This document shows positions 13,299 through 25,504 of a stretch of DNA of 64,000 nucleotides, piece by piece; the first letter of the stretch is position 1, and each line of letters starts with the position of its first letter. The DNA is from Archangium violaceum (GTDB lineage: Bacteria; Myxococcota; Myxococcia; Myxococcales; Myxococcaceae): assembly GCF_016887565.1 (NCBI RefSeq), contig NZ_CP069396.1, positions 10,708,001 to 10,772,000 on the forward strand. The letters run 5' to 3'. A model generated the notes under the pieces. The model worked only from the letters and a program-made list of their open reading frames with translations, was not told where the DNA came from and ran no database searches. Position numbers and translations under genes: made by a program.

Positions 13299-13343
13299 CA
13301 CCCCGGAGCGGGGGGCACACGCTGGGCTGGAAGCCCAGGTAGC

Positions 13344-13384
13344 GGGCTCGGAATCCCGAGGAGATCCTCGAGGGTTCCGGGCCC
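13344..13384 (+). terminator. Rho-independent terminator
   Basis: A long imperfect hairpin (GGGCTCGGAATCC pairing with GGGTTCCGGGCCC, with G-T pairs) followed by TTTGCTTT, located 46 bp after the stop of the TPR lipoprotein gene. Confidence 0.65.
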
Positions 13385-13492
13385 TTTGCTTTGGCGGAAT
13401 ATCGCCCGCGCCCGAAAAACCATCACAAGCACGGCTCACGGCCTCGACCCGATAGGGGGATGAAGACCCCACGGGAATAGAGGAGGCCGTTG

Positions 13493-14032
13493 ATGAACGA
13501 AGTCCGTCGCTTGCCTGAAACTTCCAGCCTCCGCTCCCTGGCGGGAGCCGCGGTCTTCGCGCTCGCTACACTCCTGAGTGGCCAGGCCCTCGGGCTCGAC
13601 CGCGTCCCAGGAGGGCTGGCCGGGGAACCGACCCCTGGCGAATCCCGCTCGCGCCTTGGAGATGACACCCCACTGGCGATCCAGTCCTCGGCGATGCGTG
13701 GGGCAGGCGGTCTGAAGCTGGGCCTGGGTGGCGAGAGCACTGACTTCGAGGGGCAACTCGCCGCGACGCTCTCCGCGGCGCTCGTCCGAGGACCCTTCAG
13801 CAGCGTCGCGACGGTGATCGCCCAGAAGCAACCCGGCCTGCGCCTCGAGGGGCGCTATGCCCTCCCCACGCGGACGGAGCGGCGCACGCTGAGCCTCATC
13901 GCCACCACCACCATCTTCCCCGCCGAGAGGACGCGCGCCGCCATTGGCCTCGAAGCGCGGCTCGGCATGTTCCAGTTCCTGGCGGACGTCGCCTACGAGA
14001 ACGCGCGCTTCCCGGCGCCACCACGGCGGTAG
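13493..14032 (+). CDS. Hypothetical secreted protein
   Basis: A 179-residue protein with an N-terminal signal peptide (hydrophobic stretch AGAAVFALATLLSGQALG, cleavage near residue 32). The mature part has alternating hydrophobic/polar segments in the second half (LRLEGRYALP, RRTLSLIATTTIF, AAIGLEARLGMFQFLADVAYENARF), a pattern typical of outer-membrane beta-strands, so it may be a small barrel or a fragment of one. ATG 13493 was chosen because AGGAGG lies seven bases upstream. It lies 129 bp upstream of the MFS gene of the biosynthetic cluster but does not clearly belong to it. No family recognised. Confidence 0.6.
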   Translation: MNEVRRLPETSSLRSLAGAAVFALATLLSGQALGLDRVPGGLAGEPTPGESRSRLGDDTPLAIQSSAMRGAGGLKLGLGGESTDFEGQLAATLSAALVRGPFSSVATVIAQKQPGLRLEGRYALPTRTERRTLSLIATTTIFPAERTRAAIGLEARLGMFQFLADVAYENARFPAPPRR

Positions 14033-14161
14033 CGACCAGCGCCCTCACACCCGCCATGTGCCCACTCTAGCCAGATACGAGGTGGGCCAGGCCGCTCGCG
14101 GGCTCCCCTCTCCTTGTCCTGAGTTCAGCCCATCGCCCCACCCGGCGACCGAGAGCCGTTC

Positions 14162-15427
14162 ATGAGCGTGTATCGCAATCGAAACTTCCTGCTGACCTAC
14201 GCCGCGTCCTTCATCTCCCTGTTCGGCTCCAAGCTGCTGATGATGTCGTACGTGGCCTACATCTTCGAAGCGAAGGAGAGCGCCACGCACGCCTCCCTCG
14301 TGTTCGCGGCGGAGTGGGTGACCTGCCTGGCCGTCGGGCTATTCGGCGCGCGTCACATCGATCGCATGAATGCCAGACATCTGCTCATCGGCCTGAATGT
14401 CGTCGCCGCGTTCGTGACCCTGTTGTTCGTCAACTTCACCAGCCCCGAGCTCTACCCCTACGCGCTCGCCATCATCATCGCGCGGGCATTGCTGTCTCAT
14501 TCCGTCAACGCCTCGAGGATCAAGGCGCTCGTCCAATTCTTCACCAAGGAAGAGACAGACACGTTCTCACCCGTCTTCAATTCGAGCCTGTTCATCGCGA
14601 CGGCGCTCGCGGGAGCGGTGGGCATCTACATCCTCAGATTCATCAGCTTCACGACGGTCATCTACATCGACTCCGCGACGTTCCTGATCGCCGCGGGACT
14701 CTTCAGCTTCGTCAGGCCCAACAAGCAACGCCTCGAGGAGTCGAACGAGGCCGCGCGGGGCGAGATGGCCCGCGGGCTCGCGCACATCAAGAGTTCCTTC
14801 GGCGTCATCGCGAACAACAACACCCTGGCCTCCTCCGTCTTCTACATCATCCTGACCGTGACGTCATTCCAGGCGACCTACGAGATCCTGATGACCATCA
14901 TCCCGCAGGTCTGGTTCAAGCTCGGCAAGTCCGGAACGGCGCTCTTCTTCACGTTCGAATCCGTATTCGTGACCCTCGGGGCCTTCCTCTATCAATACCT
15001 CAACCGCCGCGGGCACATCACCGAGACCAATCAACGCGTGCTGAACCTGGCCACGCTCACATTCGCCACCGTCACCTATCTCTTCATCTCCAGGCTCCAG
15101 AATCACCTCTACCTGTGCCTGATCGTCTTCAACGTGATGGTCATCGGCGTCGAGCTGCTCTGGACACACCATTTCAAGCAGATGATCACCCATATCCCAC
15201 CCGCGAAGCTCGCCGCGGTCACCGGACTCCAGACAGCCATGGGGTACAGCCTGATGGGTGTCTTCACCTTCGTGTTCTCCAGGGGAGTCGACCGCCTGGG
15301 CATCAGCACGGCCATGTACCTCAACGTCCTGTTCCTGGCGCTCCTGGTCGGCGGTTGGGAGCTCCTGATGAAGCTCCGCTCGGCCCGAGCGACGGCGAGC
15401 GTGGAGGCGAACGATGTCACGGATTGA
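14162..15427 (+). CDS. MFS transporter of the ATP-grasp cluster
   Basis: A 421-residue integral membrane protein with about 11-12 hydrophobic segments and a central charged loop (about residues 180-215), fitting the major facilitator superfamily, MFS_3-like exporters in particular. A short cytoplasmic N-terminus (MSVYRNRNFLLTYAASF) precedes helix 1. The 3' end overlaps the start of the ATP-grasp/oxygenase fusion gene by 14 bp, so it is the first gene of the biosynthetic operon and the likely exporter of its product (inference). Base composition looks less GC-extreme than flanking genes, with many ATC, TTC and AAC codons, which may indicate acquisition by transfer. Confidence 0.87.
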   Translation: MSVYRNRNFLLTYAASFISLFGSKLLMMSYVAYIFEAKESATHASLVFAAEWVTCLAVGLFGARHIDRMNARHLLIGLNVVAAFVTLLFVNFTSPELYPYALAIIIARALLSHSVNASRIKALVQFFTKEETDTFSPVFNSSLFIATALAGAVGIYILRFISFTTVIYIDSATFLIAAGLFSFVRPNKQRLEESNEAARGEMARGLAHIKSSFGVIANNNTLASSVFYIILTVTSFQATYEILMTIIPQVWFKLGKSGTALFFTFESVFVTLGAFLYQYLNRRGHITETNQRVLNLATLTFATVTYLFISRLQNHLYLCLIVFNVMVIGVELLWTHHFKQMITHIPPAKLAAVTGLQTAMGYSLMGVFTFVFSRGVDRLGISTAMYLNVLFLALLVGGWELLMKLRSARATASVEANDVTD

Positions 15428-17603
15428 TGACATCGCCGCCGATCGGACTCCACCCCTTGGCACGCACAACCACCTGGATGGAACAGACATGAAAAAAGCC
15501 TTCGTCCTGCTCGAAGTGATGAACCATATGGCCCTCGTCCTGAAAGAGGCGGCGGCACGCGGCCATCGCATCGTCGTGTTGAACCACAAGCCGTTGAGGG
15601 AGTCCGGACCCTACCGGGTGCCCAGGGAGCTCGTGGATGAGCTCATCTACATCGAGTCGTGGGAGGATCGGCCAGGGCTCCAGCGGATCCTCGAGGACCT
15701 CCACCAGCGCTACCAGGTCGTGGGGACCTATGCCGGCTTCGAGGGGACCCTGCCCTACGAAGCGGCGCTGAGGGAAATGGCGGGCCTTCCCAACAACGGG
15801 GCCGACAACGTGCGGTTTGTCCTCGACAAGGGGGCCGTCCGCAAGAAGCTCTACGCGGAAGGACTGTCCGAGCTGAAGTCCGTCCTCCTGTCCGAAGCGC
15901 GTCACTGGACGCAATGGCGGTTCAAGGGGTCGGCCATCCTCAAGCCAGTCAATGGCACCGGCAGCGCGCTCTGTTTCACCGTGTCGTCCCTCGAGGAGCT
16001 GCGCGAGGCCACGACGAAGATCGAAGAGGCCGCGGTCATCGATCCCCTGATGAAGCGCTACATCCTCGACCGGGGTGAGTTCGTCCTGGAGGAGAAGGCC
16101 GAGGGCGAGCTGCTGTCCCTGGAGTCATTGGTCTACCGCGGCGCCATCCACCCCATCGGGCTCAGCTCCCGCTATGTCCTGGCGAAGGATCCCGTGGTCG
16201 AGATGGGAGGCACCTTCCCCTACAGCCATCCGCGCCTGGACGAGATCATCGCCAAGAGCAAGGCCATCCACGAAAGCATGAAGATCTTCCATGGCTCGAC
16301 CCACGTCGAGCTCATGGTCCCGAGGGAAGGTCCCATCGAGCTGATCGACTTCAACGTCCGCTTCGCTGGAATCGAATCGCTCATCTCCTTCAACCAGGCC
16401 TTCGGAATTCCCTATGAAGCCCGCCTGACCGACCTCGCTTGCGACATCGAGCCGGATCTCTCGTTCCTGGAGCGCCCCCCGGCGTTCACCGCTGAAGTCC
16501 TGCTGCTGCCACCTCCGGGAACCACCGAGCTCCAGGAGCTCGTCTTCCCTCCGGAAGCCGTCTTCTCGCGCCTGTTCAAGGAGATTGGACAGAAGCTCAC
16601 GGGAAAGACCGATCAGTTGGATCACATCGGCTCCTTCGTCGTCAAAGCAGACACCGAGGCCGAGGTGAACCAGAAGGCCCTGGAAGCCAGACGTCGGGCC
16701 ATCTGCAACGGCAAGACGCTCGGGGACAACATCAACAACCAGGTGATTCCCCCAGACATGCTGGCCGAAACCCCCTACCCCCAAGAAAAGGAAACCCACG
16801 TGCAACACGCCCTCCAGCAACCGGTCGCCGTCTCCAGCACCCAGGCCAGGGTCGATGAGCTCCTCGTGCGCCATGTCGCGCGTCACTTCCAGGGCGAAGC
16901 CCTCGCCACGCTGCAGGAGCGATTCCAGAAGGAGCACCTCGTCCCGCTCCGCGGCTTCTGCCCTCCGGAACTGTTCGAGTCGATCAAGGAGGAGGCCTCC
17001 CGCATCGTGGAGCGGTTCGGCGTCGCGCGGAACCTCGTGCTCGACATCACCGATGGCACGCCCCGTCACATGACGACGGTCGGGCAACCCATCATCAAGG
17101 ACCACGGTCCGCTCATCCACGCCCTCTACTTCTCGCCCGTCCTGAAGGACATCCTGTCGCAGGTCGTCGGCGAGGAGCTCTTCACCTGCCCCTACGCGGG
17201 CGAACACTACGTCATCAGCCGGCTCCAGCGCTCCGGTGACACGCATGGCTGGCATTGGGACGACTACACCTACGGGTTCGTGCTCATCCTCGAGGCGCCG
17301 GACTACCGCGACGGCGGCTTCGTGCAGGGTGTGCCCCATACCTCCTGGGACAAGAAGAACCCGGACGTGCACGGCGCGCTGCTCAAGAGCCAGGTCAATT
17401 CGTATGCCTTCGAGCCCGGCGACGCCTACATCCTCAAGACCAACACGACGATGCACCGCGTCTATCCCATCCGTGGCAACGGCCGCCGGACGATCGTCAA
17501 CACGACGTGGGCCTCCGCCGCGGATCTCCAGCAATCCATCACCCACGAGACCAACGACATCCTCTTCGGCGGCACCGCGCCAGGGCTGGCGTCCAACCAG
17601 TGA
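15414..17603 (+). CDS. ATP-grasp ligase fused to BesD/HalD-like Fe(II)/2OG oxygenase
   Basis: A 729-residue bifunctional enzyme. Residues about 26-440 are an ATP-grasp domain: AILKPVNGTGSALCF forms the nucleotide loop and HVELMV with ELIDFNVRFAG supplies the metal-binding Glu and Asn. Such domains activate a carboxylate as acyl phosphate and join it to an amine. Residues about 475-729 resemble the BesD/HalD family of amino-acid Fe(II)/2-oxoglutarate enzymes: THGWHWDDY gives the HxD pair (His 614, Asp 616), MHRVYP the distal His (681), and GRRTIVN the Arg for 2OG. Halogenases of this family have Gly in place of that Asp, so hydroxylation is the likelier outcome (inference). ATG 15414 has GGAGG seven bases upstream; ATG 15489, at MKKAFVLLEV, is the alternative. 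It overlaps the MFS gene. Confidence 0.85.
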   Translation: MSRIDDIAADRTPPLGTHNHLDGTDMKKAFVLLEVMNHMALVLKEAAARGHRIVVLNHKPLRESGPYRVPRELVDELIYIESWEDRPGLQRILEDLHQRYQVVGTYAGFEGTLPYEAALREMAGLPNNGADNVRFVLDKGAVRKKLYAEGLSELKSVLLSEARHWTQWRFKGSAILKPVNGTGSALCFTVSSLEELREATTKIEEAAVIDPLMKRYILDRGEFVLEEKAEGELLSLESLVYRGAIHPIGLSSRYVLAKDPVVEMGGTFPYSHPRLDEIIAKSKAIHESMKIFHGSTHVELMVPREGPIELIDFNVRFAGIESLISFNQAFGIPYEARLTDLACDIEPDLSFLERPPAFTAEVLLLPPPGTTELQELVFPPEAVFSRLFKEIGQKLTGKTDQLDHIGSFVVKADTEAEVNQKALEARRRAICNGKTLGDNINNQVIPPDMLAETPYPQEKETHVQHALQQPVAVSSTQARVDELLVRHVARHFQGEALATLQERFQKEHLVPLRGFCPPELFESIKEEASRIVERFGVARNLVLDITDGTPRHMTTVGQPIIKDHGPLIHALYFSPVLKDILSQVVGEELFTCPYAGEHYVISRLQRSGDTHGWHWDDYTYGFVLILEAPDYRDGGFVQGVPHTSWDKKNPDVHGALLKSQVNSYAFEPGDAYILKTNTTMHRVYPIRGNGRRTIVNTTWASAADLQQSITHETNDILFGGTAPGLASNQ

Positions 17604-17605
17604 AC

Positions 17606-18712
17606 ATGGATCAACCCCCCATAAACGCCATGCACCCACGTGAAACGATGCAACACCTGCCCCGCTTCGTGCAGGGCTACTTGACCTTCGTGACCGGTGT
17701 CCCGCTCCCGGGCGAGCAACCGCTGATCCACTGGACCCCCGCCAAGGCCGCCCTCCTCGGCTTCGCGCAGACCGCCGCCGGGGTCGCGCTCGGCGCCTTC
17801 GCCCTCCGGCCCTTCACGCTCTGGTCGCTCCCGCTGCTCGTCCTGTCCTGGCTGACGACCGCGGGCGGCATGCGCCGGCTCGACGTCGTCATCGTCCATC
17901 AGACGCTTCACGGGAAGGTGGCGAAGACGGAGCGCGGCAACCGGATCCTCGGCGAGCTCATCACCACGCTGCTCTGGCGCGTGCCGTACGACCTCAATCG
18001 CAAGGAGCACCTGCTCCATCACGCGTTCCCCTGCTCGATGAAGGATGTGGACACGCGCTATCTGATCAGCACCGGCATGCGCCCGGGCATGACGCGCGGC
18101 GAGTACCACCGCTACATGCTCAAGATGCTGCTCTCGCCCAAGGCCCACTGGAGCTTCTTCTCGGGCCGCATCAAGGCCAACTTCACGCGCCACCAGCCGC
18201 GCTACCGGCTGGCGATGTCGATTGCCTATGCCACGATGACGCTCGGGTTCCTCGCGGCCACCGGGCTGTGGGCCGAGTGGCTGCTGCTCTGGCTCGTGCC
18301 GGCGTCGTTCTTCTTCCAGAACGCCACCTTCCTCTATACCCAGACAGAGCACCGCTGGTGGCTCTTCTCGCACGCGGAGAAGCTCACCCGGCAGCAGCGA
18401 GACGCGCTCAACTTCGCCCGGTTCTGCGGCGAGCCCACCCCCGACGTCGTGGGACTGACACCCGCCCGGCGCACGGCGGCCTGGGCGAAGTGGTGGATGC
18501 GTGTCTTCTTCGTGCACACGCCCTACCGCATGTTCGTCCTCGTGGGCGACACGGTGCAGCACGACCTGCACCACACGCGCCCCTCGTGTGACTGGGCCGC
18601 CTCGGCCTACGAGCGCCGCACCGACCTCACTGGCGGCACCCGGAACTACTCCGAGGTGTGGGGCTCCCTTCTCGACCACCTCTACGCGGCCGGACAGGTC
18701 CGGGCCCGGTGA
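17606..18712 (+). CDS. Membrane fatty-acid desaturase/hydroxylase-like protein
   Basis: A 368-residue membrane protein of the fatty acid desaturase superfamily. Three His clusters typical of membrane di-iron enzymes are present: HQTLH (98-102), HLLHH (135-139) and HDLHH (319-323), plus an extra His in TEHRWW (249). Hydrophobic pairs lie at about 45-85 and 210-250. These enzymes use O2 and an electron donor to desaturate or hydroxylate an acyl or alkyl chain. GTG 17600 overlaps the previous stop; ATG 17606 is adopted, and ATG 17630 or 17648 is possible. Its place inside the operon suggests tailoring of a pathway intermediate or a lipid tail rather than general lipid metabolism (inference). Confidence 0.82.
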   Translation: MDQPPINAMHPRETMQHLPRFVQGYLTFVTGVPLPGEQPLIHWTPAKAALLGFAQTAAGVALGAFALRPFTLWSLPLLVLSWLTTAGGMRRLDVVIVHQTLHGKVAKTERGNRILGELITTLLWRVPYDLNRKEHLLHHAFPCSMKDVDTRYLISTGMRPGMTRGEYHRYMLKMLLSPKAHWSFFSGRIKANFTRHQPRYRLAMSIAYATMTLGFLAATGLWAEWLLLWLVPASFFFQNATFLYTQTEHRWWLFSHAEKLTRQQRDALNFARFCGEPTPDVVGLTPARRTAAWAKWWMRVFFVHTPYRMFVLVGDTVQHDLHHTRPSCDWAASAYERRTDLTGGTRNYSEVWGSLLDHLYAAGQVRAR

Positions 18713-18716
18713 CGCA

Positions 18717-21416
18717 ATGACCAACCTCCCTCCCAACCGCAGGTTGCACCCAGACATGAACAGTCAGAACGACAAGAGCCCCGCGACGGGCACCCGGATC
18801 CTGGTGGTCGATGGAACAGGTCGTGGTCACGCGATCTGCGACCTGTTCACCCGAACCCACCCGGATGTCACCGTCTTCTACGGCCCGGGCTGCGACGTCA
18901 TCGATCAGGAGCGCATCGTGCCGGTGCCCTCCATCTCGCTGGACGAGCCACGGACAGCGCTCGACTTCCTGAAGGACAACCCGGTCGAGTTCGTCTTCGT
19001 CTCGAACATCGACGCGCTGTCGAGAGGCTACGTCGACGTGCTCCGCGCCCACGGCCACCGCGCCATCGGCCCCACCCGGGCGGCCGCGGAGCTCGAGTCG
19101 AGCAAGGAGCGTGGCAAGCGCTTCTGCTCCGACCACGGCATCCCGACCGCGCCCTACCAGTTCTTCACCGATCCGGAGGCGGCGAAGGCCTACATCCGCT
19201 CGCGGCCCTACGCCTGCGTGGTGAAGACCGACGGCCTCTGCAAGAACGGCGACGGAGCCATCGTCTGCAAGACGGCCAGCGAGGCCGAGGCTGCGGTGGA
19301 CGGCTTCGCCCGCGAGTCCGGTGATGCCTTCCAGGTGGTCGTCGAGAAGCGCCTGGAGGGTCAGGAAATCTCCATCTTCGCGCTGCTCGACGGCGACAGC
19401 TACCTGCTGTTCCCGACGGCGCTCGACTTCAAGCGCGCGCTGGAGAACGACGCCGGCAAGAACTGCGACGGCATGGGCTCGATCGCCCCCCACCCGGCGG
19501 ATGGCCCGACCCTGCGCGAGGAGATCCGCGAGACGTTGCTCGACCCGCTCGTCCGCGGCCTGCGACAGGAGGGCCTGGACTTCTCGGGCTTCATCTACGT
19601 CGGCGCGATGATGACCGACACCGGCCTCCACGTCATCGAGCTCAACGCCCGCTTCGGCGACTCCGAGGCGGAAGCGGTGCTGCCGGGCGTGCACAGCGAT
19701 TTCACCCAGCTCTGCAGGGCCATCCTCGCGAAGGAGCTGCGCGACCAGGGCCTCGTCACGGACGGGTTCGTGCGCTGCTCGGTCGCGCTGACGCAGGGCC
19801 GCGTGGAATCGACGGATCCGGAGTCCCTCCCCGGCTGGCCGTTCGGCGCGTTCATCACCGGCCAGCCCATCACCGGACTCGACACCGTGGACCCGAGCGA
19901 GGCCACGCTCTTCTACGCGAACCTCCAGAAGGACGCCGAGGGCCGTCCGGTCACCTCGGGGGGCCGCGTCCTCCACGTCGTCGGCAAGGGCCTCTCGCTC
20001 GCTGGAGCGGTCGACGCGGCCTACGGCCAGCTGGGCCGCATCGCCTTCCCAGGCATGCGCTATCGCACCGACATCGGTGCCAGGCTCCTGGCGACCGGCG
20101 GTGCTGGCCACCGCGCCGCTTCCGAGGCTCCCGGGACGATCTTCGAGGACCGCGAGTCGGACGTGCGCTCGTACTCGCGCTCGTTCCCCACGCTCTTCGC
20201 CCGGGCCAAGGGGGATTGGCTCATCGCGCGGGACGGCACCCGCTACCTCGACTTCTTCGCGGGCGCCGGTGCGCTCAATTACGGCCACAACCCCGAAGCG
20301 CTCAAGCACCGCCTGCTCACCTACCTGGAGAGCGACGGTCTGACCCATGGCCTCGACTTCGCCACCTCGGCGAAGGCGGACTTCCTCCACACCTTCCAGC
20401 AGTACGTCCTCGCGCCACGCGGGCTCGATTACAAGGTCCAGTTCTGCAGCCCGTCGGGCACCAACGCCGTCGAGGCGGCGCTCAAGCTGGCACGCCTGGT
20501 GACCGGCCGCGGCAACATCCTCTCCTTCAGTGGCGGCTTCCACGGCGTGAGCATGGGCTCACTCGCCGCGACCGGGGCGGCGTATTACAAGCAAGGCCTC
20601 TACTCGTCGCTGCCCAGGACGACGCAGGTGCCCTACCCCGACTCGCCCCTGGGCAGGTTCAACAGCCTGGACTACCTGCGCCGACTGGTCGAGGACCCGA
20701 GCTCGGGCACCGAGAAGCCCGCGGCGATCCTGCTCGAGACGGTGCAAGCCGAGGGCGGCATCTACGTCGCGCCGGTGGAGTTCCTGCGCGGGCTGCGCGC
20801 CTTCTGTGACAAGCACGGCATCCTGTTGATCGTCGACGACATCCAGGCGGGATGCGGTCGCACGGGCACCTTCTTCTCCTTCGAGCGCGCCGGCATCCAG
20901 CCGGACCTCGTGACACTCTCCAAGTCCATCAGCGGCTACGGACTGCCGATGGCCGTCCTGCTCATCAAGCCCGAGCTCGACATCTGGCAACCGGGCCAGC
21001 ACAACGGCACCTTCCGCGGCAACCAGCTCGCCTTCATCGCGGGGGCCGAGGCCATCCGTCAGCACTGGATGGACGGCACGTTCGCCGCCAGCACGCGGGA
21101 GAAGGGCGGCCTCGTCGCCGAATACCTCGAGCGTCACGTGACGCGCGTGTTCGGCGCACCGGTGCGTGGCATGGGCCTCATCTGGGGCATCGATCTGAGC
21201 GGCATCTCCGGCATCACCGCGGGCCAGGTGTCGAAACACTGCTTCGCCAGGGGACTGGTCATCGAGACCTGCGGCCGCCAGGACGACGTCCTCAAGCTCC
21301 TCCCGCCGCTCACCATCAGCAGGGAGAACCTCGAGCTCGGACTCGGAGTCATCGTCGAAGCGCTGCACGAAGCCACGTGCGGAGCGTTCAACCCCAACCT
21401 GAAAGTCGCGGGGTAG
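18717..21416 (+). CDS. PurD-like ATP-grasp ligase fused to EctB-like class III aminotransferase
   Basis: An 899-residue fusion. Residues about 20-440 follow the phosphoribosylamine-glycine ligase (PurD/GARS) layout: a Rossmann-like N-domain (ILVVDGTGRGHAI), ATP-grasp lysine strand (ACVVKTDGL), VVEKRLEGQEISIFAL, and HVIELNARFGDSEAE with the metal ligands. Residues about 480-899 form a PLP-dependent class III aminotransferase closest in pattern to diaminobutyrate aminotransferase EctB: SPSGTNAVEAALKLAR, FSGGFHGVS, LIVDDIQAGCGRTG, and the PLP lysine at 736 in TLSKSISGYG. The expected aminotransferase product is L-2,4-diaminobutyrate from aspartate semialdehyde. PurD itself would not be expected here, so the ligase half probably joins amino acids. 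The start is ATG 18717, four bases after the desaturase stop; ATG 18756 is possible. Confidence 0.87.
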   Translation: MTNLPPNRRLHPDMNSQNDKSPATGTRILVVDGTGRGHAICDLFTRTHPDVTVFYGPGCDVIDQERIVPVPSISLDEPRTALDFLKDNPVEFVFVSNIDALSRGYVDVLRAHGHRAIGPTRAAAELESSKERGKRFCSDHGIPTAPYQFFTDPEAAKAYIRSRPYACVVKTDGLCKNGDGAIVCKTASEAEAAVDGFARESGDAFQVVVEKRLEGQEISIFALLDGDSYLLFPTALDFKRALENDAGKNCDGMGSIAPHPADGPTLREEIRETLLDPLVRGLRQEGLDFSGFIYVGAMMTDTGLHVIELNARFGDSEAEAVLPGVHSDFTQLCRAILAKELRDQGLVTDGFVRCSVALTQGRVESTDPESLPGWPFGAFITGQPITGLDTVDPSEATLFYANLQKDAEGRPVTSGGRVLHVVGKGLSLAGAVDAAYGQLGRIAFPGMRYRTDIGARLLATGGAGHRAASEAPGTIFEDRESDVRSYSRSFPTLFARAKGDWLIARDGTRYLDFFAGAGALNYGHNPEALKHRLLTYLESDGLTHGLDFATSAKADFLHTFQQYVLAPRGLDYKVQFCSPSGTNAVEAALKLARLVTGRGNILSFSGGFHGVSMGSLAATGAAYYKQGLYSSLPRTTQVPYPDSPLGRFNSLDYLRRLVEDPSSGTEKPAAILLETVQAEGGIYVAPVEFLRGLRAFCDKHGILLIVDDIQAGCGRTGTFFSFERAGIQPDLVTLSKSISGYGLPMAVLLIKPELDIWQPGQHNGTFRGNQLAFIAGAEAIRQHWMDGTFAASTREKGGLVAEYLERHVTRVFGAPVRGMGLIWGIDLSGISGITAGQVSKHCFARGLVIETCGRQDDVLKLLPPLTISRENLELGLGVIVEALHEATCGAFNPNLKVAG

Positions 21417-21420
21417 GACA

Positions 21421-22191
21421 GTGAATCCCATGAAACTGGTCGTACGGAAATTCGGTGGGGCCTGCTTCGAGCACCTCGACGGCTACAAGCTCATCGCCGG
21501 GCTCCTGGCGCGCGAGGAGGAGCGTCAGGCCGTGGTGGTGTCGGCGCGCAAGGGCGTGACGGATCAACTCCTGGCCCAGGTGGAGATGCTGGGCGGGGTT
21601 GGCTCCGACCATGCCGATCAGCTCGTGGCGACGGGCGAGCTGCAGAGTGCCTCGTTGCTCCTGCTCGCGCTGCACTCGCTCGGAGTACGCGCGGAGCTCA
21701 TCCCGGCCGAGGAGGTCTTCGAGACCGACGGCATCCCCGGCAGCGCGACGGTGGTGGCGGTGCACACCGACAGGGTGCTCGCGGCGCTCGAGCGCGGCAC
21801 CATCCCGGTGGTGCCGGGCTTCTACGGTGCCGGCAAGACGAGCCGGATCGCCACGTTCAAACGCGGCGGCTCGGACTACTCGGCCGTGGCGCTGGGCATC
21901 GCGCTCGGCGCCTCACATGTCGAGCTGTGCAAGGCCGAGACGGACGGCATCTTCGACAAGGACCCGAATGTCGATCCGACGGCGCGCAGGTTCAGCGTCC
22001 TGTCCCACCAGCATGCACTCGAGCTCGCCCGCGCTGGCGCCAAGGTGCTGCAGGCCGACTCGGCCGAGCTGGCGCTCCGGTGGAAGCTGCCGCTGATCGT
22101 CAAGCCGGCGTTCGCGCGCGGCGGCGGCACCCGGATCGGTTGGCCCGACCCTTTTGACGTGGCCGAGCCGTCCGCCGCGAAAAGCGCCTGA
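21421..22191 (+). CDS. Aspartokinase catalytic domain, without ACT domains
   Basis: A 256-residue amino-acid kinase. Motifs match aspartokinases: VVRKFGGAC at the N-terminus, VVVSARKGVTD, the phosphate/aspartate segment KRGGSDYSAVALG and KAETDGIFDKDPNVDPTARR. It would phosphorylate the side-chain carboxylate of L-aspartate. Ordinary aspartokinases are about 400-460 residues with C-terminal ACT regulatory domains; these are missing, so feedback inhibition by lysine or threonine is not expected. The gene starts (GTG 21421) five bases after the aminotransferase fusion, consistent with feeding aspartyl phosphate toward diaminobutyrate. An alternative start is ATG 21430. Confidence 0.87.
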   Translation: MNPMKLVVRKFGGACFEHLDGYKLIAGLLAREEERQAVVVSARKGVTDQLLAQVEMLGGVGSDHADQLVATGELQSASLLLLALHSLGVRAELIPAEEVFETDGIPGSATVVAVHTDRVLAALERGTIPVVPGFYGAGKTSRIATFKRGGSDYSAVALGIALGASHVELCKAETDGIFDKDPNVDPTARRFSVLSHQHALELARAGAKVLQADSAELALRWKLPLIVKPAFARGGGTRIGWPDPFDVAEPSAAKSA

Positions 22192-22234
22192 TCGCAAACT
22201 GGAAGCACGAAAACCCCTTCCCCGGAGACACACC

Positions 22235-23491
22235 ATGAAGACCGCGGTCATCATCGCATCGGCTGGATTCAGGAACTTCCACTTCGACCTGCTGAAGGCA
22301 CCCGAGAAGGTCCGCTTCATCGGGCTCTTCACGGAGCAGGACATCGTCAACATGCCGGAGAGCCAGCTCCGGCGCTTCCATCAGGTCCACGTGGTGCCGT
22401 GCGGGGTGAAGGACCCCTCGCCACTGCTCTGCCCGCTGGTCGACCTCAACGCGGCGCGCTCCATCATCCGCGGGCTCCTGACGGAGACGAAGCGCGAGGA
22501 CCTGACGGTGAACACCCAATTCGAATACGACGTGCTGCTCGCCTCGCAGCTCCGCTCTGAATTCGGCCTCCAGGGACCGAAGTACGAGGACATCCTGCCC
22601 TTTCGCGACAAGTACCTGATGAAAGAGAAGCTCGTCGCGAAAGGCGTGCGCGTGCCGAAGTTCGGCCGCTATGAGCCCGCGCGTTTCTCTCGCGACCCGG
22701 CCGCCTACTTCCGGCACATCACAGCCGAGGTGGGCCTGCCCTTCGTCCTCAAGCCGGTCGACTCGGCTGGCGCCGACGGTGTCCACAAGATCTCCTCGTG
22801 GAGCGACTTCGAGGCGCTGCGCGGCGACTTCGGTCGGGGATACGAGTACGAGGAGTTCATCCAGGGAACGATGTACAGCGTCAACATCATCTCGAAGGAC
22901 CGGAAGACCGTCTTCGGCGGCGTGACCGAATACCTCGTCAACTCCTTCGACGTGCAGGCCGGCAAGGTCAACGCAGACATCAACCTGATCGACCACGACC
23001 CGTGGGTCGCGCGAATGGTCCGCTTCGCCGAGTCGGCGCTCGATGCGCTTGGCTGGCCGGACGGCGCCTCGCACCTGGAGCTCTTCCTCACCGACCAGGA
23101 CGAGCTCGTCTTCCTCGAGGTCGCCGCGCGCTTCAAGGGACTGGCCGGACTGGCGGCGATGGAGCGCCACTACGGCATCGCCCTGACCAACCTTTCGTTC
23201 GAGCTGGAGACGGGGATCGAGAGCAGGCCGTACGACCAGGAGCAGGTCTACTGCTTCGACGGCGTGCTCCCGAAGAGGGGCGGCGTCATCGAGCGCCTCA
23301 TCGAGCCCCAGGCCGAGAGCGAGTACAAGATGACGTGGAAGGTGCGGCCGGGCGACGTGACCGACCAGACCGACTCGCTGCAGGCCAACGCGGGGACCTT
23401 CCTGATGTGGAACAAGGACTACGAGGCGCTCTACCGGGACTTCAAACGGCTCGCCCACTACGAGCCGATCGTCTATCGGCCGCGTGCCTGA
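22235..23491 (+). CDS. Stand-alone ATP-grasp carboxylate-amine ligase
   Basis: A 418-residue ATP-grasp enzyme, the third such domain in the cluster. Visible landmarks are a Rossmann-like N-domain (KTAVIIASAGFRNFHFD), the ATP-binding strand FVLKPVDSAGADGV, YEYEEFIQGTMYSVN, and the metal-binding HLELFL with ELVFLEVAARFKGLAG. In the last element the usual Asn is replaced by a Val-Ala context (EVAARF), a variation also seen in some natural-product ATP-grasp ligases. GGAG lies seven bases before ATG 22235. It is the last gene of the operon; a convergent crotonase follows 22 bp later. The likely role is amide or peptide bond formation; substrates cannot be read from sequence. Confidence 0.85.
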   Translation: MKTAVIIASAGFRNFHFDLLKAPEKVRFIGLFTEQDIVNMPESQLRRFHQVHVVPCGVKDPSPLLCPLVDLNAARSIIRGLLTETKREDLTVNTQFEYDVLLASQLRSEFGLQGPKYEDILPFRDKYLMKEKLVAKGVRVPKFGRYEPARFSRDPAAYFRHITAEVGLPFVLKPVDSAGADGVHKISSWSDFEALRGDFGRGYEYEEFIQGTMYSVNIISKDRKTVFGGVTEYLVNSFDVQAGKVNADINLIDHDPWVARMVRFAESALDALGWPDGASHLELFLTDQDELVFLEVAARFKGLAGLAAMERHYGIALTNLSFELETGIESRPYDQEQVYCFDGVLPKRGGVIERLIEPQAESEYKMTWKVRPGDVTDQTDSLQANAGTFLMWNKDYEALYRDFKRLAHYEPIVYRPRA

Positions 23492-23513
23492 CTTCCACTG
23501 GAGGGCCCCGTCC

Positions 23514-24275
23514 CTACTCGAACCGGCCGTGCCGGCCGGCACCGTGAGCGAAGCGCTTCGCGCCGGCCAGGGACTCCGACTCGAGCACCTGGATGCCGCC
23601 GCGGAACTCCTGGAGGAGAGCCTCCTCCAGGGAGAGCGAGGCCTGGGCATACGCCGAGCGCCGGTCCGCGTTCATGCAGGCCTGCGGGAACGCGGCGATC
23701 TCCCGGGCGAGCTGCTCGGCGGCCTCGCGTGCGTTTCCACGGGGCACCACGCGGTTGACGAGCCCCATCCCCAGCGCCTCCTGCGCTGACACCGGACGCC
23801 CGGTGAGGATGAGGTCCAGCGCGCGTGAGAGGCCAATCAACCGGGGCAGTCGCACCGTGCCCCCGTCGATGAGCGGCACGCCCCAGCGGCGGCAGAACAC
23901 GCCCAGCACGGCGTCCTCCTCCGCCACGCGCAGGTCGCACCAGAGGGCCAGCTCCAGCCCTCCCGCGACGGCGTGACCCGAGATGGCGGCGATCACCGGC
24001 TTGCTCAGCACCATCCGCGAGGGCCCCATGGGACCATCCCCCTCGGGCTCGAGGCGCGGCAGCCGGCCCTCGGACACCGCCTTCAGGTCCGCTCCCGCGC
24101 AGAAGGTGCCGCCCTCGCCGAAGAAGACACCGACCTTCGCCTCGCCATCCGCGTCGAACGCCCGGAAGGCATCCGCCAGGGCCAGCGCCGTGGCTCCGTC
24201 CACGGCGTTGCGCACGTCGGGGCGGCTGAGGATGACGGTGGTGATGGGGCCGTTCTTCTCGACGCGGACGCTCAT
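23514..24275 (-). CDS. Enoyl-CoA hydratase/isomerase family protein
   Basis: A 253-residue crotonase-fold protein. The two oxyanion-hole segments are present (GTFCAGADLKAV and AISGHAVAGGLELAL), followed by FCRRWGVPLIDGGTVRLPRLIG, where the acidic residue of IDGG takes the place of the usual catalytic Glu. The family acts on acyl-CoA thioesters in beta-oxidation and related pathways; the exact reaction is uncertain. ATG 24275 (MSVRVEKNGPITTV) was chosen over an upstream in-frame ATG because family similarity begins there. It is convergent with the biosynthetic operon and lies 10 bp downstream of a lipoprotein gene on the same strand. Confidence 0.85.
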   Translation of the reverse strand: MSVRVEKNGPITTVILSRPDVRNAVDGATALALADAFRAFDADGEAKVGVFFGEGGTFCAGADLKAVSEGRLPRLEPEGDGPMGPSRMVLSKPVIAAISGHAVAGGLELALWCDLRVAEEDAVLGVFCRRWGVPLIDGGTVRLPRLIGLSRALDLILTGRPVSAQEALGMGLVNRVVPRGNAREAAEQLAREIAAFPQACMNADRRSAYAQASLSLEEALLQEFRGGIQVLESESLAGAKRFAHGAGRHGRFE

Positions 24276-24285
24276 GGGGGGCTCT

Positions 24286-24822
24286 CTAGAATTCGTAGCG
24301 CGCGGTGGCCTGCGCACCGGTGAAGCGCAGCTCGATGGTGCCGTGCTCGCTCTTGTACTGCTCGCGCCAGCGCTGCTTCAGCGGGCCCAGGTCGAAGCTG
24401 GCGGTCCGGTTCAGCAGCGCCTCACAGGCATCCCCATTCGCATCGTGGGCCAGCACGAGCTCCGCCTGAGACCCACCCGCCGCCGTCTTCTGGAAGTCCC
24501 CCTTCCAGAGCAGGTCGTACGTGTGCTCCTTGCAGCCACCCGAGTGCATCACCTTCGCCACCAGCGTGTCGCCCTGGAGCTCGAGGCTCTGGATGATGAT
24601 GTCGTCCTTGGGCGAGGGTGAGTCCGTCAACCGAAGAGTCTTGGGCGTGGAAGAGACGGCGGCTGGTGACTGCTGCTCGCCCGGAGGTGCTTCCACCGGC
24701 GCGTCCGCGGGCGCCTCGGCCTGGGGTGCCGGACGAGACGTATCACCGCTGGTGGAAGTCGAAGTCCCCGCACAACCGAGCAGGGTACAGAGAACGAGAC
24801 CGCTCCAGATTGGCTTTCGCAT
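24286..24822 (-). CDS. Hypothetical lipoprotein
   Basis: A 178-residue protein with a lipoprotein signal (LLGCAG, Cys about 17) followed by a Ser/Thr/Pro/Ala-rich linker up to about residue 60. The folded C-terminal part contains DDIIIQSLELQGDTLVAKV and two Cys (GGCKEH and GDACEAL) that could form a disulfide. AGGAG lies seven bases before ATG 24822. It is separated from the suf operon by 121 bp containing a dispersed repeat, and is followed 10 bp later by the crotonase gene. No function is assigned. Confidence 0.75.
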   Translation of the reverse strand: MRKPIWSGLVLCTLLGCAGTSTSTSGDTSRPAPQAEAPADAPVEAPPGEQQSPAAVSSTPKTLRLTDSPSPKDDIIIQSLELQGDTLVAKVMHSGGCKEHTYDLLWKGDFQKTAAGGSQAELVLAHDANGDACEALLNRTASFDLGPLKQRWREQYKSEHGTIELRFTGAQATARYEF

Positions 24823-24882
24823 GGCTCTCCTGACGGGACTCTCCGGGTCTGGATTCATCCGGAACACGGAGGTTTCGGGGAT

Positions 24883-24917
24883 GACCCTCACCCTAGCCCT
24901 CTCCCAGAGGGAGAGGG
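24883..24917 (-). repeat. Dispersed palindromic repeat, copy 1
   Basis: A 35-bp element whose core is CCCTCTCCC-TCT-GGGAGAGGG (9-bp arms) with a GGGTGAGGG side arm, here in reverse orientation. It lies between sufT and the lipoprotein gene. Three more copies are in the window (31398, 34650, 47846). Confidence 0.85.
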
Positions 24918-24943
24918 AACCCACACAGGAGGGAATCCGGGGT

Positions 24944-25504
24944 CTACATCCAACCGAGCTGCAGCCGCGCCACGTCCGACATGCGGCTCTGATCCCAGGG
25001 CGGCTCCCACACCAGCTCGACGTTCGCCTCCTTCACCCCGGGCACGTCCTGCACCTTGCGCCGCACGTCGTCCACCAGCACCGGCCCCATCCCGCACCCC
25101 GGTGCCGTCACCGTCATCTGGATCTCCACCCGCTGCCCTCCCTCCGGCAACGGCGTCGCCTTGCACTGGTACACCAGCCCCAGCTCCACGATGTTCACCG
25201 GAATCTCCGGGTCATACACCGTGCGGAGCTGCTCCCAGACGCGCTCCTCGTCGAACGCGCCCTCCTCGGCCGGAGCCTCGGACTCGGCGGGCTTCGGGTT
25301 CTGCGCCACATAGTCGGCGCCCAGCGCATCCGCGTCCTTCTCGTCGATGCGCATCAGCTGCCCGTAGTCGCCCTGCACGGTCACGTTCCCGCCGAGCGTC
25401 TGCAGCACCCGCACCTCGGTGCCCGCGGGCACCATCACCCGCTCGCCGCTCGGAATCATCGTCACCTCGCAGTCGCGTGCGAGCGGTGTCAGTAATCCCC
25501 TCAT
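24944..25504 (-). CDS. sufT: SufT, iron-sulfur assembly factor (DUF59/MIP18 family)
   Basis: A 186-residue protein. The N-terminal half is a small beta-domain (SGERVMVPAGTEVRVLQTLGGNVTVQ), and the C-terminal half (about 85-186) is a DUF59/MIP18-type domain with YDPEIPVNIVELGLVY and the conserved Cys loop TAPGCGMGPVLVDDV. SufT proteins help mature Fe-S proteins in the cytoplasm. It is the last gene of the suf operon, 13 bp after sufU, with AGGAGGT five bases before ATG 25504. The match to the SufT architecture is strong. Confidence 0.88.
   Translation of the reverse strand: MRGLLTPLARDCEVTMIPSGERVMVPAGTEVRVLQTLGGNVTVQGDYGQLMRIDEKDADALGADYVAQNPKPAESEAPAEEGAFDEERVWEQLRTVYDPEIPVNIVELGLVYQCKATPLPEGGQRVEIQMTVTAPGCGMGPVLVDDVRRKVQDVPGVKEANVELVWEPPWDQSRMSDVARLQLGWM

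Follow-up and report, generated by a model that had tools for sequence, protein, structure and literature searches.

The cluster described here lies in a 64,000-nucleotide stretch of the single-contig, 13.2 Mb genome of Archangium violaceum (contig NZ_CP069396.1, positions 10,708,001 to 10,772,000; the whole stretch is called the window). Six genes at positions 14162-23491, all on the plus strand, probably form a horizontally acquired cluster for the synthesis, without a nonribosomal peptide synthetase (NRPS), and the export of a small oxidised peptide or amide derived from 2,4-diaminobutyrate (DAB). The peptide nature of this product and its export are predictions. The genes encode a major facilitator superfamily (MFS) exporter, an ATP-grasp ligase (ATPg1) fused to a BesD/HalD-family Fe(II)/2-oxoglutarate domain (HalD), a membrane di-iron enzyme (DES), a PurD-like (GARS) ligase fused to an EctB-type aminotransferase, an aspartokinase, and a third ATP-grasp ligase (ATPg3).

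A cluster recurrent in actinobacterial genomes

With an ATPg1 alignment as query, a scan that took one genome per species recovered 21 loci, 20 of them actinobacterial and one in a distant Salinarimonas. In 16 of the 20 actinobacterial loci, DES comes after HalD on the same strand and GARS, ATPg1 and ATPg3 are present as well; 15 of these 16 likewise possess EctB, and the window represents the seventeenth core cluster. The second search, with GARS-EctB and independent of the ATPg1 start, covered 392 Streptomyces genomes in a draw centred on the cluster-bearing genome G199, which was chosen for that property and is counted among the matches. Six genomes matched, all with HalD, DES, ATPg1 and ATPg3. 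Four of these were already part of the ATPg1 scan (L012, L020, L027, L028), and the two new ones (L071, L073) carry the same gene set, which raises the total to 19 core clusters. Outside the window, EctB is present in 17 of 18 clusters (the 16 scan loci and the two added Streptomyces). The conserved gene order by which the preliminary description proposed to judge the cluster is thus found in 16 of 20 actinobacterial loci and in L071 and L073. Because synteny is conserved, a chance grouping is excluded and the compact cluster is a real unit. This supports a dedicated, transferable biosynthetic cluster.

The core clusters fall into two types. Type A has the order MFS-ATPg1-HalD-DES-GARS-EctB-ATPg3 and comprises the window, L014, L015, L016, L020, L021 and L030; the window differs in order from the others solely by its extra aspartokinase. 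Type B (L012, L013, L018, L022, L024, L026-L029, L031, L071 and L073) adds a further, LAL-type ligase, which therefore occurs in 12 of the 19 core clusters (its LAL_C2 domain was tested in L013), and a NUDIX gene, which scores as NAD(+) diphosphatase in L013. Nine of the 12 type B clusters have a second kind of MFS gene, and two (L012, L024) an FMN enzyme. An alanine racemase gene ends the type B clusters of L013 (19165-20274) and L018 (near 18647), for which D-alanine supply or self-protection are possible roles. SARP-type regulators, which commonly accompany antibiotic clusters, adjoin the clusters of L016 and L020. The MFS orthologue is found in 11 of the 21 scan loci, in 10 of them directly before ATPg1. 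Fusions vary from locus to locus: Wenjunlia and Catellatospora share the ATPg1-HalD fusion of the window, whose GARS-EctB fusion recurs in 21 other proteins of 60-85% identity. In Catellatospora, a gene of the ornithine cyclodeaminase/mu-crystallin family directly precedes ATPg1-HalD (L022:8956-9951).

Four actinobacterial loci lack the core. L017 and L023 consist of MFS and ATPg1 only, and L019 and L025 of MFS, ATPg1 and ATPg3 beside an asparagine-synthetase-A-like gene (tested in L025, assigned by similarity in L019). The ATPg1 proteins of these four loci form a separate clade (support 100/100), and a GARS-EctB search of the four genomes at E 1e-80 gave none beyond ordinary EctB-like matches. 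The asparagine-synthetase-A-like gene, a class II tRNA-synthetase paralogue, lies directly upstream of MFS-ATPg1-ATPg3 (L019:7037-8674, L025:1803-3377), with no DAB core there; this arrangement is possibly a sister pathway using an asparagine-like unit. Some Betaproteobacteria, namely an Oxalobacteraceae strain and Chitinimonas, have orthologues of single genes. A plasmid search for the fusion gave partial matches only, in seven records, and the Massilia match sits in an NRPS cluster.

Within the window, all six genes of the preliminary description are present with every domain it named (Table 1), including an aspartokinase devoid of ACT domains. Intergenic gaps are 61, 2, 4, 13 and 43 bp in gene order, and alternative starts tighten this spacing: ATG 15414 turns the 61 bp gap into a 14-bp overlap, GTG 17600 the 2 bp gap into an overlap, and GTG 21421 reduces 13 bp to 4 bp. 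No promoter pattern was found at the cluster, and the seven terminator-like sites are near the shuffle expectation of 4.9 (sd 2.8).

Table 1. Genes of the cluster, with coordinates in the window and domain assignments from Pfam and NCBIfam profiles
Product	Position	Strand	Domains and scores
MFS exporter, 421 aa	14162..15427	+	PF07690 (MFS_1) 70.9 bits
Bifunctional ATPg1 (ATP-grasp ligase, ~residues 1-430) and BesD/HalD-family Fe(II)/2-oxoglutarate domain, probable hydroxylase (~446-704)	15489..17603	+	PF18130 (ATPgrasp_N), PF13535 (ATP-grasp_4), PF23169 (HalD) 319.9 bits; HGWHWDD
DES, membrane di-iron desaturase/hydroxylase, 368 aa	17606..18712	+	PF00487 (FA_desaturase) 57.2 bits
Bifunctional PurD (GARS)-like ATP-grasp ligase (~18795-20087) and EctB-type DAB aminotransferase (~20136-21374)	18717..21416	+	PF02844/PF01071/PF02843 (GARS N/A/C), PF00202 (Aminotran_3); TIGR02407 566 bits
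Aspartate kinase catalytic domain without ACT, 253 aa	21430..22191	+	PF00696 alone
ATPg3, ATP-grasp L-amino acid ligase, 418 aa	22235..23491	+	PF02655, PF13535; nearest solved chain 4wd3

Predicted activities of the enzymes

The EctB domain scores above the DAB-aminotransferase equivalog TIGR02407 (cut-off 552.2 bits), in keeping with the preliminary description, and formation of L-DAB by this domain is well supported. DAB as the precursor of the pathway fits these data. The ectoine operon ectABC likewise has an EctB-type DAB aminotransferase, but the 18 cluster EctBs fall into a single clade (support 100/100) that excludes 14 ectoine-type or other sequences, two of which are one gene and one of which (L049) is only 41% identical. 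EctC (PF06339) is absent from the whole host genome, whereas the same search finds it in all three other genomes; EctA is not among the six genes, the rest of the genome not having been searched for it. An ectoine pathway was rejected on the absence of EctC, and the earlier statement that this is not a standard ectoine cluster holds. In L027, the cluster lacks EctB at the place, between ATPg1 and the LAL gene, that EctB occupies in L026, L028, L071 and L073, and the sole EctB match in the genome adjoins EctC. This ectoine EctB could stand in for the cluster enzyme, which is consistent with DAB as precursor. As to DAB supply, the aspartokinase of the window can be aligned with 3ab4, an aspartokinase chain of 421 residues, over residues 1-242 of that chain. 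The host genome has three further strong and two weak aspartokinase matches, and an Asd candidate below the family cut-off (233.5 vs 324.2 bits).

The three ATP-grasp modules recognised earlier are likewise confirmed, except that the second, fused to EctB, proves to derive from PurD. All three GARS domains (N, A and C) are present with the ATP-grasp catalytic residues, as in PurD itself. The cluster copy is nevertheless a paralogue beside a normal PurD: each of five genomes examined has a separate PurD of 458-499 bits, compared to 308-329 bits for the cluster copy, and the GARS domain is 33-34% identical to two housekeeping PurDs. A small comparison of 17 cluster copies with these two PurDs yielded 71 invariant positions, including Glu294, Asn296 and Arg298, and 18 fixed differences, including Glu23Gly, Glu84Ile, Ala85Asp, Lys165Asp (in the Gly-rich loop), Thr236Cys, Gly237Asp, Pro302Ser and Thr304Ala. 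The loops GSGAREH and GPEAPL of PurD, which contain Glu23, Glu84 and Ala85 and which we take to be its phosphoribosylamine side, are replaced by DGTGRGH and SNIDAL both in the window and in L013, and four of these positions show fixed differences across all 17 copies; the Gly-rich loop is likewise changed in all 17. Four PurDs from the PDB agree by eye with the PurD pattern in both N-terminal loops. Since the acceptor loops are changed while a separate PurD is kept, we interpret the domain as an ATP-grasp ligase that has taken on new substrates and is no longer a glycinamide ribonucleotide (GAR) synthetase.

The BesD/HalD family assignment of the Fe(II)/2-oxoglutarate domain stands as well, although the domain has a hydroxylase HWD triad instead of a halogenase-type site. 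The third iron-ligand place, Gly142 in BesD, is occupied by aspartate (motif HGWHWDD), and the open halide site HxG is missing. An HxD triad is present in all 120 listed orthologues, of 191 found, and the aspartate also in all six aligned non-cluster relatives besides BesD. The hydroxylase of the family has aspartate at the same place, according to PMC13244439. The nearest solved chains are HalB (206.8 bits), HalD (175.1), BesD (168.6) and a lysine hydroxylase (156.3); the score with the BesD equivalog NF042920 is 186.5 bits, short of its cut-off of 450. Hydroxylation rather than halogenation by this domain is well supported, and identity as a halogenase was rejected because of the triad in the window and in the 120 listed orthologues. 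The lysine contacts of BesD given in that paper are R77, E123, H137, D143, D239 and W241, and the cofactor contacts R218 and N222 (PMC13244439). The window keeps R77, E123, H137, H140, D143, H207, R218 and N222. Because aspartate takes the Gly142 place and the compared substrate residues of BesD are kept, the predicted reaction is hydroxylation of a cationic amino acid.

Many of the HxD proteins (P0222-P0341) are labelled "HalD/BesD family halogenase" in databases, where the triad indicates hydroxylases. The label "ArpA protein", carried by some HalD orthologues, led nowhere in the literature. Two relatives of the host also have an HxD BesD-family gene (L010:1498-2370, L011:1504-2265) beside an argininosuccinate synthase-like gene (judged by eye, in L010).

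DES is a membrane di-iron enzyme as previously proposed, and its three histidine boxes (H98xxxH102, H135xxHH139, H319xxHH323) are invariant in 17 aligned proteins. Its sequence matched no solved structure, and its AlphaFold model has long helices with a mean pLDDT of 66.1, too weak to use alone. The guanitoxin enzyme GntB, an arginine 4-hydroxylase according to PMC10367076, is comparable as a membrane FA_desaturase-family enzyme acting on an amino acid. DES differs from it by a score of 37.9 bits, far below the GntB cut-off of 380, and by the lack of an arginine-cyclising partner among the six window genes. The solved chain nearest to ATPg3 is the "L-amino acid ligase" 4wd3 (57.3 bits), from a class that makes dipeptides. 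The six genes include tailoring genes and one or more free-standing amino acid ligases, with no NRPS among them.

Probable acquisition by the host

The interval 13299..24287 is missing from the closest congener (G045), in which the flanks lie 55 bp apart and are 94-95% identical. Other congeners have intervals of ~0.9 kb (G047), 3.6 kb (G043 and G044) and 18.8 kb (G046) at the same site. The cluster was found in none of the five congeners, either by DNA search or by search with the two fusion proteins. Its absence from all five, with an empty site in G045, indicates that it was probably acquired horizontally. Composition is a weak sign of acquisition, the GC content per kb being 0.61-0.70 inside the stretch, compared with 0.69-0.75 on its left side and 0.65-0.72 on its right. 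The host is the only one of 195 genomes of its phylum to have the GARS-EctB fusion; nine others match over the EctB portion only. The HalD tree places the window, with modest support (89/85), together with Oxalobacteraceae, Chitinimonas, a metagenome-assembled genome of Myxococcota and P0222.

A 180-aa reading frame (13490-14032) precedes the MFS gene within the acquired stretch; it has no Pfam match and no listed match in congeners. Downstream of the cluster, still inside the stretch missing from G045, lies an enoyl-CoA hydratase gene (~23507-24278) that G043, G044 and G046 keep. A short dispersed repeat lies at 24877-24944; among the matches listed (69 in its own genome, plus five congeners), most are ~40-60 bp copies of 82-100% identity.

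Proposed pathway, alternatives and known systems

The pathway would start with the ACT-less kinase, which should be free of feedback control, and a housekeeping Asd, for both of which candidates are present and which would supply L-aspartate-semialdehyde for conversion to L-DAB by EctB, the latter step being well supported. Fused enzymes usually act in sequence, and on this ground EctB may be paired with GARS, and HalD with ATPg1. The PurD-like domain, being fused to EctB and having changed acceptor loops, would activate a carboxylate as acyl phosphate and join it to the DAB amine. The HxD domain, well supported as a hydroxylase, would hydroxylate a putative cationic amino acid and pass it to the fused ATPg1. 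DES may add a second hydroxylation or a desaturation, ATPg1 and ATPg3 would form the remaining peptide bonds, and the MFS protein would export the product.

Several observations weigh against this pathway. BesD relatives of known activity act on Lys/Orn or Leu-type amino acids, not on DAB, as far as PMC8407142 reports, and DAB has two carbons fewer than lysine. The BesD contacts D239 and W241 lie outside the residue comparison, and P0337, one of 30 aligned orthologues, has other residues in place of R77 and N222. With 326 bits, the GARS domain is still above the cut-off of 288 bits for the PurD equivalog domain. ATPg1 also works outside a DAB pathway, as L017 and L023 hold MFS and ATPg1 alone. 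Finally, the aspartokinase, which the preliminary description counted in the gene set, does not belong to the conserved core: within the stretches examined it occurs in one of 19 core clusters, that of the window. The aspartokinase matches that L015 and L030 have at a distance of ~8 kb represent the usual type with ACT domains (tested only in L015), and a place in the core was rejected.

Alternatively, the product might be a cyclic or free non-proteinogenic amino acid, e.g., an oxidised lactam or an ectoine-like ring from DAB, with the ATP-grasp enzymes closing the ring or making a transient conjugate. The fusion of EctB with the PurD-like ligase, the devotion of two oxygenases to a single small unit, and MFS with ATPg1 alone in L017 and L023 as a possible modification and export pair all agree with such a product, yet we consider it unlikely in view of the relationship of ATPg3 to an L-amino acid ligase and of the LAL-type ligase in 12 of 19 core clusters, both of which point to peptides. 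That the product is a peptide with a halogenated cationic amino acid, which the database name of many orthologues would imply, is very improbable: the solved halogenases HalB, HalD and BesD do rank ahead of the lysine hydroxylase and the BesD-type N222 is kept, but the Gly142 that frees the halide site in BesD is aspartate in the window, the 120 listed orthologues and the six non-cluster relatives. It is hardly credible that housekeeping PurD, EctB and aspartokinase genes adjoin by accident and serve no single pathway, and this possibility was rejected. Each gene does have a counterpart with a housekeeping role, whose name it would receive from family models; against this stand the separate PurD in five of five genomes, the ectoine EctB with EctC that G196 has in addition to its cluster EctB, a gene order common to the window and Streptomyces, and the absence of the cluster from all five congeners.

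An extension of the DAB-derived peptide pathway can be envisaged, although we regard it, taken as a whole, as rather doubtful. HalD-DES-GARS-EctB would make a new amino-acid warhead, GARS aminoacylating a DAB nitrogen and the iron enzymes oxidising the acylated side chain; an N-acyl-enamine or a hemiaminal, with pyridoxal phosphate (PLP) enzymes as targets, would be examples of the outcome. ATPg1, ATPg3 and the third ligase of many actinobacteria would cap it with variable amino acids, giving a "Trojan-horse" peptide family, and the alanine racemase (two clusters) and NudC-like hydrolase (twelve) would confer immunity.

ATP-grasp peptide clusters are a known kind, among them those of bacilysin and dapdiamide, which are of the L-amino acid ligase type. 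The clusters of mangotoxin (PMC13185094), belactosin (PMC11427300) and fungal E-64 (PMC12568646) resemble the window in that free-standing ATP-grasp ligases build small peptides wholly or partly, with tailoring enzymes and without NRPS; in the descriptions consulted, none has a PurD-derived ligase together with EctB, a hydroxylase of the BesD family and a membrane di-iron enzyme, and the precursor predicted for the window is DAB. The free-amino-acid halogenases BesD/HalD of the beta-ethynylserine pathway share with the window domain their family and eight BesD residues (substrate, iron and cofactor); they differ in having HxG for HxD, and the window domain is fused to, or in other clusters beside, an ATP-grasp ligase. 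Phaseolotoxin derives from ornithine, alanine and homoarginine, and to our knowledge its pht cluster has no PurD- or BesD-type enzyme. Going by the reference titles in PMC8473136, and not by sequence comparison, that cluster has, like the window, an L-amino acid ligase together with a fatty-acid-desaturase homologue and a transferase for amino-acid groups. Literature searches confined to openly licensed PubMed Central papers found no description of the combination present here, in line with the earlier remark that no described pathway has this gene set.

The cluster thus represents a recurrent and apparently undescribed kind of natural-product cluster, in which every step is open to soluble-enzyme assay except for one membrane protein and the exporter. 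If the proposed pathway is correct, PurD has been recruited to peptide-like chemistry, for which we know of no earlier case, and the EctB-PurD fusion predicts the order of the steps. Likewise, if the hydroxylase assignment is correct, a large clade of proteins now named halogenases in public databases would be amino-acid hydroxylases.

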